From Mycobacterium kiyosense (GTDB lineage Bacteria > Actinomycetota > Actinomycetes > Mycobacteriales > Mycobacteriaceae), in contig AP025179.1 of assembly GCA_021654635.1 (NCBI GenBank), positions 2,294,001-2,358,000 of the forward strand: a stretch of 64,000 bases of DNA, in the 5' to 3' direction. The number at the start of each line of letters is the position of its first letter. Position 1 is the stretch's first letter. Of this stretch, positions 39,897 through 54,795 are shown one piece after another. A program made the position numbers and the translations under genes. The notes beneath the pieces are model-generated. The model did no database searches and was not told where the DNA came from. It was given only the letters and a program-made list of their open reading frames with translations.

Positions 39897-39965
39897 GGTG
39901 GTACCTCCGGCGACCGAGACCTTTCGTCCGGTACCTTCATTCGAGCACTGGACCCGGTTGCGCGC

Positions 39966-39979
39966 GAGGGACGGAAGTC
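39966..39979 (-). promoter_or_regulatory. DosR box
   Basis: Minus-strand GGGACTTCCGTCCC agrees with 12 of 14 positions of the DosR core GGGACTWWAGTCCC. It lies about 70 bases upstream of the four-helix membrane protein gene. The same 14-mer recurs at 40968 in the other orientation. Confidence 0.78.
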
Positions 39980-40018
39980 CCAACTTTCAGCGTCGTGCCC
40001 CAACCTTGCCGATCTCGC

Positions 40019-49042: not shown

Positions 49043-49075
49043 ACCCTCGTGGGATCGCGGGAAGGAGATGCCCCG

Positions 49076-50179
49076 ATGACCAAGCACTGGCTGGTGATGG
49101 AGCCCGACGGGCAGGGCGCACCCGCACCGTACGTCGCCCGGGTGGCGGGCGCCGGGCGGTATCTGCCCGAAACCCGGCTCACCACCGACGAATTGATGGC
49201 GACCACCCGCCACCACACGCACATCGACCTGGAGCGGCTGACCGGCATCCGCGAACGCCGGGTGGCGGCGGGCGACCAGGATTCCTACACCCTGGCGGTG
49301 TCGGCGGCGCTGAACTGCCTGGCCACCGCGCAGCAGGACCCGGCGTCACTCGACGTGGTGATCAGCTGCAGCATCACCAAGTTCCAGGGCGGCCTCACCC
49401 AATGGCTGGAACCGACCATGAGTGGTGCGATCGCCCGCGGGATCGGCGCGCACGGCGCGATGACCTTCGACGTGTCCAACGCGTGTGCCGGAATGCTCAC
49501 CGGCGTAACGATTCTGAACAACTGGATCCGCCAGGGGGTGGTCGAGCGGGGCCTGGTGGTCAGTGGTGAGTACATCTCCCAACTCAGCGACAACGCCGCC
49601 CGGCACATCCGCAACATCATGAGCAAGGAGTTGGCCTGCCTGACCCTCGGCGACGCCGGCGCCGCGCTGCTGCTGGAACGGGCACCGGCCGGCTCGGCGG
49701 GCATCGCGCTCGCCGGGTTCACCACCGTCGCCGACTACAGCCGGCTGTGCCTGGCGTATCCGCAGGGGCACGACCCCGGCGCGCGGATGTTCACCAACTC
49801 CCGCGGGATACAGCAGGCGGCGATCGCCAACACCCCACTGCTGCTGCACGAAGTCCTTGACGCCGTGGGTATTTCGGTGCACGACATCGACCACGTGATC
49901 ACCCACCAGACGTCGGCCCGGGCGATCCGCAAGGGGATGACGCGGCTGACCGAGGAGTTCGGCGACAGCCCTCGACACGACGCGGTGATCACTGTCGACC
50001 GGTACGGCAACACGGCCTCGACCACCCACACGGTGGCCCTGGTGGAGGAACTCGAGGCCGGGCACATCGCGGCCGGGGAACGGATCGCGTTGCTGGCGCT
50101 GGCCTCCGGGCTGGAGATCGGTGTGGTGTTGGTGACTCTCGACGAGGATCTGGTGAAGCGCTATGGGCACAGTCATTGA
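49076..50179 (+). CDS. KAS III-like (FabH-type) condensing enzyme
   Basis: Thiolase-fold enzyme of 367 residues. The Cys-His-Asn triad of ketoacyl-ACP synthase III is complete: Cys137 (VSNACAGMLTG), His277 (THQTSARAI, where FabH has HQAN) and Asn312 (YGNTAST). The N-terminal YVARVAGAGRYLPETRLT and LTGIRERR are FabH-like. A GAAGGAGA site precedes the ATG at 49076. It overlaps the next, related gene by 17 bases, implying a joint complex. Substrates are unknown; the position within a DosR-type island suggests a hypoxia product. Confidence 0.9.
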   Translation: MTKHWLVMEPDGQGAPAPYVARVAGAGRYLPETRLTTDELMATTRHHTHIDLERLTGIRERRVAAGDQDSYTLAVSAALNCLATAQQDPASLDVVISCSITKFQGGLTQWLEPTMSGAIARGIGAHGAMTFDVSNACAGMLTGVTILNNWIRQGVVERGLVVSGEYISQLSDNAARHIRNIMSKELACLTLGDAGAALLLERAPAGSAGIALAGFTTVADYSRLCLAYPQGHDPGARMFTNSRGIQQAAIANTPLLLHEVLDAVGISVHDIDHVITHQTSARAIRKGMTRLTEEFGDSPRHDAVITVDRYGNTASTTHTVALVEELEAGHIAAGERIALLALASGLEIGVVLVTLDEDLVKRYGHSH

Positions 50180-51074
50180 TCGGGTCGACATCGCGCGGCC
50201 CCGGTTGCGCGGACGGCACAGCTCCCTGCATCTGGCTGTCGCGGCGGCCAACAAGTGCCTGCACCATGCCCGGTGCGACCCATCCGAGTTGGACCTGGTG
50301 GTCAATGCCGGCATCTACCGCGACCGCAACCTGGGCGAACCGGCGCTGGCCGCGCTGATCCAGGACGACATCGGCGCCAACCCGGAGGACCCGCACGCCG
50401 GTGCGCACGGCACCTTCTCCTTCGACATCGCCAACGGCTCCTGCGGCGTGCTCACCGCGCTGCAGATCGTGGACGGGTTCCTGCGCAGCCGCGCCATCCG
50501 GCGCGCCCTGGTGGTGGCCGGCGACGCCGATCCGGGCCACGGCATGAGCGAGCATTTCCCGTTCTCACCGACCGGTGCCGCGCTGTTGTGCGGCTGGCGT
50601 GACGACGGCTACGGGCTGGGACCGGTGTCCTGGGTGAACGCGACCGAGAACCCCGAGCAGGCCGAATCATTGGTCGCCACAGTCGGATTCGCGGACGGCC
50701 GCAACGTGCTGCGGTTCGGCCAGTCGCCGGCGATGGACGAGAACTTCGCCGCCGCGGCCGCGCAGGCAGTGCGGGACTGCCTGGCCGCGGAGTCGCTGCG
50801 GCTCGCCGAACTCGACCGGATCGTCGCCGCTCCGGCCCGCGACGGCTTCCACTCGGCGCTGGCCGAACACCTCGGTGTGCCGAGCGAGATGATCGCCGTG
50901 GCCGGGGACCAGCGCGTGCACACCGCGGCGCTGGCGGCGGCCTACGACGAACTGCTGCCGCACCTGCGGGCCGGGGCCCGGGTGCTGTTCGTCGCCGCCG
51001 GTGCCGGCGTGACCGCGGGTGCCGCCCTGTATCGGCGGCCACCGGAGGCCGTCGGGGATCGCTCGTTCACCTGA
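50163..51074 (+). CDS. KAS III-like partner protein with incomplete triad
   Basis: A 303-residue thiolase-fold protein, shorter than its neighbour and lacking about 50 N-terminal residues of the fold. A Cys is at the nucleophile place (Cys94, DIANGSCGVLTA) and a His at 230 (DGFHSALAEH), but the position of the third residue, Asn in GNT, is taken by GDQRVHTAA. Such a defective second subunit is known in heteromeric condensing enzymes (PqsBC type). I infer a heterodimer with the preceding protein. Translation is coupled through the overlap. Confidence 0.83.
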   Translation: MGTVIDRVDIARPRLRGRHSSLHLAVAAANKCLHHARCDPSELDLVVNAGIYRDRNLGEPALAALIQDDIGANPEDPHAGAHGTFSFDIANGSCGVLTALQIVDGFLRSRAIRRALVVAGDADPGHGMSEHFPFSPTGAALLCGWRDDGYGLGPVSWVNATENPEQAESLVATVGFADGRNVLRFGQSPAMDENFAAAAAQAVRDCLAAESLRLAELDRIVAAPARDGFHSALAEHLGVPSEMIAVAGDQRVHTAALAAAYDELLPHLRAGARVLFVAAGAGVTAGAALYRRPPEAVGDRSFT

Positions 51075-52075: not shown

Positions 52076-52864
52076 TCAGGAAGCCCGCGCCGGGGGTTGC
52101 AGACGCTCGACGGCGGTGGCGGTCAACACCGTGCCCCAGGCGTGCGCGGCGCTGCGCCGCATCGCCTGCGGATCCCCGGTGGTGACGAAATGGCGGGGCG
52201 CCGGGCCGGGCTGACGCAGCCGCGGATAGCGCGCCGCGACGGCCGCGGCCAGCTGCGCGGCCGGGTCGACCAGTCGGGCGTGCGGTAGTGCCGCCGCGAA
52301 CCAGCGCGCGGCCGCGGGGTAGTGGGTGCAGGCCAGCACCAGCGCGTCGGCTTGTCGCAGAGGCGCGATGATCCTGTCCAGATCGGCCTGAAATCGCGGC
52401 GAGCCGGTGCGGCCGGCCTCGATGTGCGCCGACAGCGGCTGCGCGACCCGGGACACCACCGTCCGGCCGGGCCGGGCCAGGCCGCGCCGGTAGTGACCGG
52501 CGGCGATGGTGCGCCGCCCACCGACCACGGCGACGCAGACCGCGTCGTCGGGAACCGAGGCGACGCCGTGGCCGATGATGCCCTCCACCGGCACTGCGGT
52601 ATTGAGTCGATCGGCCACCGTGCTGGCCGCGTTGCACGCCAGCACCACCTCGGTGGCGCCGCGCCGGGCGAGGGCGGCGACCACCGAAGTCAGGCGACCG
52701 GCCAGTTCGTCGGCGCCCATCCGGCCGTAGGGTGTGACGCCGGCGTCCGACCAGTACAGCACCGGCAACCCCGGGGCGAGGCGGTCCAGGTGGGTGAGCA
52801 GTCCGACGCCGCCGATGCCCCAGTCGACGATGCCCAGGCACGGTTCGGCGGGCATGGCGGTCAC
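52076..52864 (-). CDS. Divergent glutamate/aspartate racemase-family protein
   Basis: A 262-residue protein of the cofactor-independent MurI family. Both catalytic cysteines are present: LACNAAST and LACTHYPAA. The N-terminal acid motif reads GIVDWGIGG where MurI has DSGxGG, so Trp replaces the conserved Ser next to the catalytic Asp; the YWSDAGVTPYG motif is near normal. The GTG at 52864 overlaps the stop of the fusion gene upstream (GTGA), which favours it over ATG 52855. It may make a D-amino acid for a special product, or be a second racemase beside a housekeeping murI. Confidence 0.83.
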   Translation of the reverse strand: MTAMPAEPCLGIVDWGIGGVGLLTHLDRLAPGLPVLYWSDAGVTPYGRMGADELAGRLTSVVAALARRGATEVVLACNAASTVADRLNTAVPVEGIIGHGVASVPDDAVCVAVVGGRRTIAAGHYRRGLARPGRTVVSRVAQPLSAHIEAGRTGSPRFQADLDRIIAPLRQADALVLACTHYPAAARWFAAALPHARLVDPAAQLAAAVAARYPRLRQPGPAPRHFVTTGDPQAMRRSAAHAWGTVLTATAVERLQPPARAS

Positions 52865-54795
52865 GGGTAGGACAGCGGGGCGGTCTGCCCCTTGTCCAAG
52901 GGCCCGGAGTCGAAGGCCAGTACCCGCGCCTGCAGCGTCGTCGTCAGCGTCTCCAGCCGGGTGCCGGGGAAGCGACTGCCGAAATACCAGCGGTACTCGT
53001 GTTCGGCACGGATCGGATTGTGCCGCAACATATTCCGCCAGTCCGGATGTGAGGTCAAGGCGGCCAGGTCGGCGGCGAACTGCGGCCTGCGATAACGGGT
53101 GCGCAGGTGCGCGCGCGCCGAGTGGGCCAGCAGCGGCAACTCGCGCAGTCGCACCGGTTGCTCGACCATGTCGACCACCCATAGCCGTCCGCCCGGCGCC
53201 AGCACCCGGCGGATCTCGGCCATCACCGGATCCCAGTCCAGGTAGCGGAAGGACAAAAACGAGATGACCACGTCGACGTGATTGTCGGGTACGTCCAGCG
53301 TCGGTCCGCTGACCTGGCCGAAGCGCAGCCGCGTCCGGCCGTGGCTGCGCTCGCGCGCCCGGTCCAGCATGCCGGCGGAACTGTCCAGCCCGACGGCGAA
53401 GTCGATGTCGCCGTTGTCGTCCAGGGCGCGCAGCAAAGCGCCGTTGCCGCAACCGATTTCCAGCACCCGCACCCGGCGCCCGAGGTCGGCGTGCACGGCG
53501 GTCAGTCGGTTGGCGACCCACCGCCACTCGGTATCGCGGACGCGGATGTCGGCGTAGGCGCGGTCGTACAGTTCGGCCACGCGATCGTAGGATCGCTCGG
53601 GTTGCGTTGCGGCGGGCTGGCTTTCGGTCATCGGTTCGGCAGCCGCGCCCAGGTACTTGCGTAGGCTGCCGGCCCACCCGTGCGACTTCTTCCCGGGCGC
53701 CGCGATCAGATAAAGCTTGGGGCGAGCCGCCGGTTGGCGGCCCGCCCAGGCAAACCGGTCCTTGCGAGTGGACACGGTCGTGTAGTTGTGGTTGCCGTAG
53801 GTCGCCACGCCGAAGACGTCGGCGAAAAAGGGTGCGAACCAGCGGGCGGTCCGGCAGGCGTGAAAGTAGGCGCGTCCGTTCGGGGCGAAAGGGATCGTCA
53901 TGGCGCGCCACTCGTGCGGCGAAAACTGTTCGGGCCAATCGGTGGAACCGAACATGGGGCCGTACATTCCCGCATGACCGATCAAGTGGAGTTCGCTGAT
54001 GACCCGGCCGGACAGGGCCAGCCAGGCCAGCTCGGTTTCGAAGTCGCCCTTGTGGTGCAGGCCGGAGACGATCACCTCGGCGTCGGGGCGTGCGGCGGCA
54101 AGCTCGCGACCCATGGTGGCCGCGGCCACCGCGAACTCGGACGAGCCGCCCCGGTAGTGGGTGGTGTGTCCGACCCAAATCACCGGCTTTCCTTGGCTTC
54201 TGGGTGCGACGTCGGCGAAGGGGATCCGCGAGTGGCTGCCCGCCGGGATCCATGCGCCGTAGTTGCCGACGAGCTCGAGCACTTCTGCGCGGTCCAGGTC
54301 GAAGACCCGCATCCCGGCCGCCGGCGGGCTGTACAGGTGCAGGGTGAGGCCGTCGGCTTCGGCGGTCATGTCGTGGATGTCGGCCGGCGAGATCGGGATC
54401 GGGACGCCCTCATCCCGGCTGATTTGTTCGGTGACGGCGAGTTGCGTTCCCCGCCAACCGAATCGACGTTCGTGGAATCGTCCCGTCAGGGGCACCACGA
54501 AGCCCCCTGAGCCGCCGTGGTCGTGCGGGGCGCAGCCGTGTCCCGGGCGCCAGCGGGCGAGCATGATCTCCACCCGGTCGTCGACCCGCAGAATCGACCG
54601 CGAATAAGGGTCGTTGTCGTTGGGGTATTTCGCCAGCGCCGCCAGCAGCGGCCGGGCCGCCGTCGTACGGGCGAGCAGGTCGGAACCGGGGACTTCGCCG
54701 CGCACGGCGACCTCGGCCAGCGCGTCCAGCAGTGCTGACACCTCGTCGAGTTGCTCGCGCCCGGTGGCAGTTGGGTGGTGCGCGATGTCGGTCAT
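52861..54795 (-). CDS. Three-domain fusion: cysteine-dioxygenase cupin, caspase-like domain, methyltransferase
   Basis: A 644-residue protein. Residues 1-185 are a cysteine-dioxygenase-type cupin: His91 and His93 (APHDHGG) and His141 (ADIHDM) bind iron, and YSRSIL (Arg66) matches the carboxylate-binding Arg of the Arg-type enzymes. Residues 200-385 show a Rossmann-like alternation with His274 (LHLIGHAG) and Cys314 (YFHACRTA), the dyad layout of caspase/CHAT cysteine peptidases. Residues 400-644 are a class I methyltransferase (VLEIGCGNG at 444-452, then FLSFRYLDWDP) resembling the DosR-regulon protein Rv2003c. I know of no described protein with this combination. It is coupled to the racemase. 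A weak GGGACT half-site lies upstream. Confidence 0.85.
   Translation of the reverse strand: MTDIAHHPTATGREQLDEVSALLDALAEVAVRGEVPGSDLLARTTAARPLLAALAKYPNDNDPYSRSILRVDDRVEIMLARWRPGHGCAPHDHGGSGGFVVPLTGRFHERRFGWRGTQLAVTEQISRDEGVPIPISPADIHDMTAEADGLTLHLYSPPAAGMRVFDLDRAEVLELVGNYGAWIPAGSHSRIPFADVAPRSQGKPVIWVGHTTHYRGGSSEFAVAAATMGRELAAARPDAEVIVSGLHHKGDFETELAWLALSGRVISELHLIGHAGMYGPMFGSTDWPEQFSPHEWRAMTIPFAPNGRAYFHACRTARWFAPFFADVFGVATYGNHNYTTVSTRKDRFAWAGRQPAARPKLYLIAAPGKKSHGWAGSLRKYLGAAAEPMTESQPAATQPERSYDRVAELYDRAYADIRVRDTEWRWVANRLTAVHADLGRRVRVLEIGCGNGALLRALDDNGDIDFAVGLDSSAGMLDRARERSHGRTRLRFGQVSGPTLDVPDNHVDVVISFLSFRYLDWDPVMAEIRRVLAPGGRLWVVDMVEQPVRLRELPLLAHSARAHLRTRYRRPQFAADLAALTSHPDWRNMLRHNPIRAEHEYRWYFGSRFPGTRLETLTTTLQARVLAFDSGPLDKGQTAPLSYP

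Follow-up and report, generated by a model that had tools for sequence, protein, structure and literature searches.

A predicted caspase-fold domain joined to a methyltransferase and followed by a dedicated racemase: an apparently undescribed bacterial gene unit and its dioxygenase-fused form in Mycobacterium kiyosense

The closest described relatives of the proteins considered here are the clan CD peptidases, the Arg-type cysteine dioxygenases and the glutamate racemases of the MurI type, which act on free amino acids. In a 64,000-nucleotide stretch of the Mycobacterium kiyosense genome (assembly GCA_021654635.1, contig AP025179.1, positions 2,294,001 to 2,358,000; hereafter, the window), we analyzed a minus-strand gene at 52861..54795 that encodes a 644-amino-acid fusion of a dioxygenase cupin, a predicted caspase-fold domain and a class I methyltransferase, together with the racemase-like gene that adjoins it (52076..52864, minus strand; 262 amino acids). 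Across genomes, the core unit is a chain of caspase-fold domain and methyltransferase followed by a dedicated racemase, and the window gene is its actinobacterial, dioxygenase-fused form; we put the probability of the operon and fold statements at about 0.9.

A sequence-only reading of the window had proposed the three-part fusion from its motifs, and the Pfam matches, the predicted fold and the conserved homologues bear it out. The residues that it singled out (Arg66, His91, His93, His141, His274 in LIGHAG, Cys314 in HACRTA, and the segment VLEIGCGNG) are all in place. Pfam matched CDO_I at residues 61-166 and Methyltransf_11 at residues 445-539, both above cut-off. A homologue search that scored 7996 candidates returned 1445 at E <= 1e-3; because the best 120 of these, query included, cover 92% or more of the query at 68-100% identity, the frame is not a chance one. 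In those 120 sequences Arg66, His91, His141, His274 and Cys314 are kept throughout and His93 in 119, and conservation is highest in the middle segment, where 85 of 205 positions reach 99% identity or more, versus 56 of 190 and 92 of 249 in the other two.

The composition of the unit was established from loci found by searching genome contigs with a profile of close homologues and two peptide patterns of the middle domain, the best 80 of 95 relatives being kept. Thirty of these loci are labelled mycobacterial and four come from other Actinomycetota; the rest carry labels from Myxococcota, Acidobacteriota, Bacteroidota, Verrucomicrobia, Desulfuromonas and unnamed bacteria, and since most of these are metagenome bins, labels outside Actinomycetota may err. 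The middle domain and the methyltransferase were both matched in every locus and lie in one frame in 79, the remaining locus (L093) being frameshifted, with the two matches in overlapping frames. The typical chain from outside Actinomycetota has about 435 residues and no cupin. Judged with profiles built from the loci themselves, 74 of the 75 loci with enough downstream DNA, under labels from several phyla, have a racemase downstream on the same strand. The distance between chain and racemase, measured to the start of the matched racemase domain, has a median of 18 bases and is at most 150 in 73 of the 74 (705 in L133). Left out of the linkage count are L093, L106, L109, L113 and L118; the genomes of L093 and L109 carry a racemase elsewhere, 76% and 40% identical, respectively. 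The only testable locus without an adjoining racemase is L117 (8001-9275), and no racemase match was found anywhere in its genome bin.

In the window, the GTG start of the racemase gene and the fusion gene's stop codon share four bases, GTGA; an alternative ATG follows three codons later. This overlap and the conserved downstream linkage support the coupling to a racemase that had been suggested for the fusion gene. The racemase scored 44.6 bits against the Pfam model Asp_Glu_race (cut-off 31). It fell below the cut-offs of the MurI equivalog TIGR00067 (80.8 bits, cut-off 146.65) and of the cysteate racemase CuyB model (46.5 bits, cut-off 190), and the canonical MurI encoded elsewhere in this genome reached 217 bits. 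We compared 74 operon racemases, from the window and 73 loci (the partial sequence of L125 was dropped), with 16 canonical MurI proteins from relatives. Both catalytic cysteines are kept in all 74. The DSG motif present in 16 of 16 MurI reads DWG in all 73 operon racemases with letters there, a change of Ser to Trp, and CN[TS]AS, where CN[TS]A is present in 16 of 16 MurI, begins CNA in all 74, with Thr/Ser changed to Ala. Further changes relative to MurI include Thr to Gly118, Cys to Gln144 and Val to Ser147 (74 of 74 each) and Ala to Arg120 (72 of 74). These substitutions, taken with the scores below cut-off, set the operon racemases apart as a subfamily of their own within the glutamate racemase family, probably active and with another substrate.

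The middle domain (about residues 205-393; 53617..54183, minus strand) is predicted to adopt the caspase-hemoglobinase fold of clan CD peptidases. Compared with the caspase topology, the order of its core strands places the proposed catalytic His274 (53974..53976) two residues past the end of the third strand and the proposed nucleophile Cys314 (53854..53856) two residues past the end of the fourth, which is the order and strand position of the clan CD dyad. Both residues are invariant in 60 of 60 diverse domains (identity down to 44%) and in all 293 sequences of a larger alignment, across which 84 positions are at least 98% conserved. Structure prediction thus upheld the caspase type of fold expected for this segment, and the assignment of the dyad stands on order, topology and conservation. 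Arg215 (54151..54153), between the first strand and the first helix, is a candidate acid-binding residue and is kept in 290 of 290 sequences with a letter there, the other three having gaps. Entries for legumain and glycosylphosphatidylinositol (GPI) transamidase are among the best structural matches of the domain, and those for caspase, MALT1 and CHAT do at least equally well.

Sequence families gave the middle domain no clear place. Pfam had no match over residues 190-395 of the window's protein, and its Peptidase_C14 and CHAT models matched neither the window's domain nor those of 11 close homologues nor the 60 diverse domains. A search of PDB sequences with a close-homologue profile of the domain returned nothing up to E 10; the diverse profile returned two designed proteins and two colicins at E 0.25-1.2, which we took as chance. 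DUF4347 (PF14252) was weakly matched by six of the 11 close homologues' domains (best E 0.04) and six of the 60 diverse domains (best E 0.0091), though not by the window's own domain. Next came Amidase, with three of the 60 diverse domains (best E 0.17), and otherwise scattered single families. A scan of 40 genomes of the class for DUF4347 was silent, as were its controls, and we draw nothing from it. When the domain's profile is aligned with that of Peptidase_C14, the dyad residues fall opposite each other; the local-mode probability is 0.66% and the global mode failed, so that we use it only as agreement.

The class I S-adenosylmethionine (SAM)-dependent methyltransferase core occupies residues 442-545 (53161..53472, minus strand; Pfam Methyltransf_11, E 1.4e-18, 67.8 bits against a cut-off of 21.2). 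It has the SAM-binding core of class I enzymes, with Gly448, Gly450, Gly452 and Asp471 present in 293 of 293 sequences. Beyond it, the chain ends in a conserved tail, P-L-S-Y-P (codons 640-644; 52864..52878, minus strand). An aromatic residue followed by Pro closes 238 of 240 database proteins and all 76 complete loci, and the stricter end [ST]-[YFW]-P is found in 235 of 240 and 65 of 76, respectively. Overlapping coding does not explain the tail, because the aromatic-Pro end is also kept in the eight loci whose racemase lies at least 90 bases away. Residues 641-644 fall below a predicted local distance difference test (pLDDT) score of 50 in the full-length model, and an end that is conserved yet predicted to be flexible suggests a docking or carrying role.

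The cupin (residues 61-166; 54298..54615, minus strand) scored 40.5 bits against CDO_I (cut-off 23), and alignment to solved cysteine dioxygenases gave the ligands His91, His93 and His141, plus Arg66 and Tyr155; with its three His ligands and Arg it belongs to the Arg-type cysteine dioxygenases. The sequence-only reading had placed this domain in one chain with the other two; it is not part of the core, the constant parts being the caspase-fold/methyltransferase chain and the racemase. The search that it had suggested for the same fusion and its conserved neighbours found the fusion in 34 of the 80 loci, all labelled Actinomycetota, alongside the near-constant racemase; in 12 loci the dioxygenase is a separate upstream frame, and in 34 none was seen, several of these having less than 2 kb of upstream DNA and one (L130) almost none. 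CDO_I occurs elsewhere in the genome in 16 of 22 genomes without a neighbouring dioxygenase. We compared 26 operon dioxygenases, fused and upstream, with 11 unlinked ones (ten of those 16 and a second cysteine dioxygenase of this genome). The end motif GAW[ILVS]P is present in 26 of 26 operon forms versus 0 of 11 unlinked forms, and the operon forms stand apart in a tree with support of 88/91, below the tool's 95/80 mark. The second cysteine-dioxygenase-like gene of this genome (locus L005; G000:C1:5160145-5160480) falls outside the operon-type group.

When a tree is built from the caspase-methyltransferase part, the Actinomycetota fall into a single group (100/100), and the row closest to this group (100/99) is a bin labelled Sorangium, in which the dioxygenase is a separate gene upstream; the Myxococcota rows are scattered. 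On the simplest reading, the fusion grew out of an arrangement of adjoining genes like that of myxobacteria. The distribution of the unit is patchy. In searches that scored part of the candidates per genome, full-length matches were found in five of 298 genomes of the host's order, all from the same genus (of which 35 genomes were listed), and the middle-domain profile matched three of 394 genomes of the class sample. The phylum sample of 396 genomes gave no full-length match besides this genome, and an acidobacterial sample held the unit in four of 149 genomes, three of them already known.

Besides the racemase and the dioxygenase, clustering of neighbours and Pfam scans of 20 proteins, two of them upstream dioxygenases, revealed no neighbour recurring across lineages; open reading frames (ORFs) below 90 codons were not examined. 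Genes for DUF58, SpoIIM and META proteins recur in the acidobacterial loci (L127-L145; seven to nine loci each), with none observed next to the unit in the other lineages; this recurrence is probably local gene order. Free-standing caspase-fold proteins were also sought, and none was accepted among eight examined (best 120 of 169 matches listed): in P0241, P0246, P0253, P0258 and P0268 the domain continues into a methyltransferase, and P0281 ends inside the domain. In a partial protein from a Kofleriaceae-labelled Myxococcota bin (P0304), an operon-type dioxygenase is joined to the caspase-fold domain, either because fusion happened a second time or because the bin is wrong. The ORF of P0317 passes from the caspase-fold domain to the second half of a racemase without a methyltransferase, and is probably a product of deletion or assembly.

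We propose, as a weakly held guess, that the unit modifies an acidic amino-acid unit. The mechanism as a whole is tentative: the enzymes would form a small pathway whose target is a single unit resembling an acidic amino acid, either free or within a peptide. Where present, the cupin would oxidize a cysteine-type thiol to the sulfinate, which resembles aspartate. In the caspase-fold domain, Arg215 and perhaps Lys249 would hold an acidic residue, at which the His274/Cys314 dyad would form an acyl-enzyme; the domain would then release or transfer this residue. The methyltransferase would cap the product, and the racemase, working with two cysteines, would invert the product's alpha carbon. The flexible, conserved C-terminus would probably dock the partner or the substrate. 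Cysteine sulfinate is an aspartate analogue, and as the acidic unit it would fit all the partners. A cysteine-containing substrate, as had been suggested from the sequence, is possible, though unproven.

Several observations weigh against parts of this proposal and of the fold assignment beneath it. No sequence search ties the middle domain to a solved peptidase; the best match from Foldseek by itself has E 0.011, none reaching 0.001, and from rank 24 on its list contains unrelated folds, lumazine synthase among them. The full-length model has a pLDDT of 86.5 and a predicted template modelling score (pTM) of 0.58, a value at which the orientation of the domains is left unsettled and their arrangement is not confident. 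The S1-pocket argument for Arg215 rests on a comparison with caspase residues. Glutamate itself is an unlikely substrate of the racemase, because Trp replaces the MurI Ser in the first motif. The sulfinate cannot be the general substrate, because in 34 of 80 loci no dioxygenase is seen next to the unit, and the ten dioxygenases compared out of the 16 located elsewhere fall in a different group from the operon forms; the sulfinate is at best one branch, in dioxygenase-bearing lineages.

What the caspase-fold domain does in such a pathway can be read in several ways. It may be a transferase instead of a protease: an amine would resolve its acyl-enzyme, in the manner of legumain-type ligases and GPI transamidase, so that it builds an amide in a small molecule. 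The legumain and GPI-transamidase entries among its structural matches, the strong conservation, which suits one defined substrate, and the compact operon all agree with such an enzyme; caspase, MALT1 and CHAT entries match equally well or better, however, and no ATP-dependent activation partner was present among the neighbours examined, and we give transfer only a modest chance. Cleavage followed by methylation of the new end, as in CAAX processing, is somewhat harder to credit. Here the domain would be a specific protease acting on a cellular protein or peptide, the methyltransferase would methylate the newly formed end, and the racemase would supply or edit a D residue of that peptide. The caspase fold with its dyad and the presence of both domains in one frame in all but the frameshifted locus speak for it; the action of MurI-type racemases on free amino acids speaks against it, as does the lack of a further cross-lineage neighbour among those examined, a weak objection given that the short ORFs left aside could include precursor peptides. 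Comparably unlikely, in our estimation, is a caspase-fold enzyme recruited to biosynthesis, which with the fused methyltransferase, the dedicated two-cysteine racemase and, in some lineages, a thiol dioxygenase would build or release a modified acidic amino acid not yet described, the aromatic-Pro tail being a built-in dock or carrier.

Other readings move the chemistry or the role away from the caspase-fold domain or from metabolism. The domain might be an altered scaffold that binds a ligand and has ceased to cleave anything, the real chemistry being methylation and racemization; for no member could we find an activity on record, and no Pfam peptidase model matches the scanned domains, yet the invariance of His274 and Cys314 at identities down to 44% would be unusual for a dead enzyme and makes this quite improbable. 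A defence system or toxin-like effector with a caspase-type protease would suit the patchy distribution, and CHAT and other prokaryotic caspase folds do occur in defence. The sole PADLOC hit, however, is to the generic methyltransferase region (mad2, 53.6 bits), the racemase having none, and the partners here are a racemase and a dioxygenase, so that we consider defence very improbable.

Least credible of all is a DosR-linked mycobacterial hypoxia unit with the dioxygenase as oxygen sensor, and the link to hypoxia drawn in the sequence-only reading was not supported. A universal-stress-type gene (labelled without a family search) does adjoin the racemase in the window, and such a gene lies near the unit in L066, L071, L072 and L078; in the other 26 of the 30 mycobacterial loci, some with short flanks, it was not found. 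A scan of the whole window with a DosR-type palindrome consensus found none near the fusion gene, and the unit is present under labels of other phyla. The sole palindrome match, at 39965-39984, has three mismatches, with 0.67 matches expected by chance in 64 kb. The window also holds two consecutive, overlapping ketoacyl-synthase-III-like genes at 49049-51074 (labelled without a family search), and among mycobacterial loci the pair lies near the unit only in L071, L072 and L078.

The two- to three-gene unit is apparently undescribed, judged by the open-access literature and family scans. In that literature, subscription papers lying outside the search, we found no description of the unit, none linking DUF4347 to caspases, and no fusion of a caspase-like or orthocaspase domain with a methyltransferase domain in bacteria. 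Where names are given among the listed matches, they are mostly methyltransferase or hypothetical protein; with the chain of L111 as query (1934 homologues among 7998 scored), the names given among the 120 listed are methyltransferase or UbiE. Pfam gives the middle domain no clear family, yet the predicted caspase fold is present there under labels of Mycobacteriaceae, other Actinomycetota, Myxococcota, Acidobacteriota, Bacteroidota and others, and the recurrence of the unit in several phyla of bacteria points to an enzyme pathway not yet known. If the pathway is biosynthetic, the known roles of caspase folds would widen; if it is proteolytic, a protease and a capping enzyme would be combined in one chain. 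Because the chain is tied to a racemase in nearly every testable locus, its substrate should be testable by a few in-vitro assays.

Compared with known systems, the unit shares single features with several. Unlike the clan CD peptidases (caspases, MALT1, legumain, PIGK, and CHAT as in SAVED-CHAT), the fusion has no peptidase match in Pfam or among PDB sequences; here a predicted caspase fold is fused to a methyltransferase and stands in an operon with a racemase. DUF4347 is the only Pfam family matched by several of the middle domains; the matches are weak and the relationship is unproven. With the Arg-type cysteine dioxygenases the cupin has in common the three-His site and the equivalents of Arg and Tyr, and it differs by its fusion or operon linkage and by its end motif. 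The operon racemase, for its part, falls below both score cut-offs and has at least six conserved positions substituted, while it retains both catalytic cysteines and several motif residues in common with MurI and CuyB.
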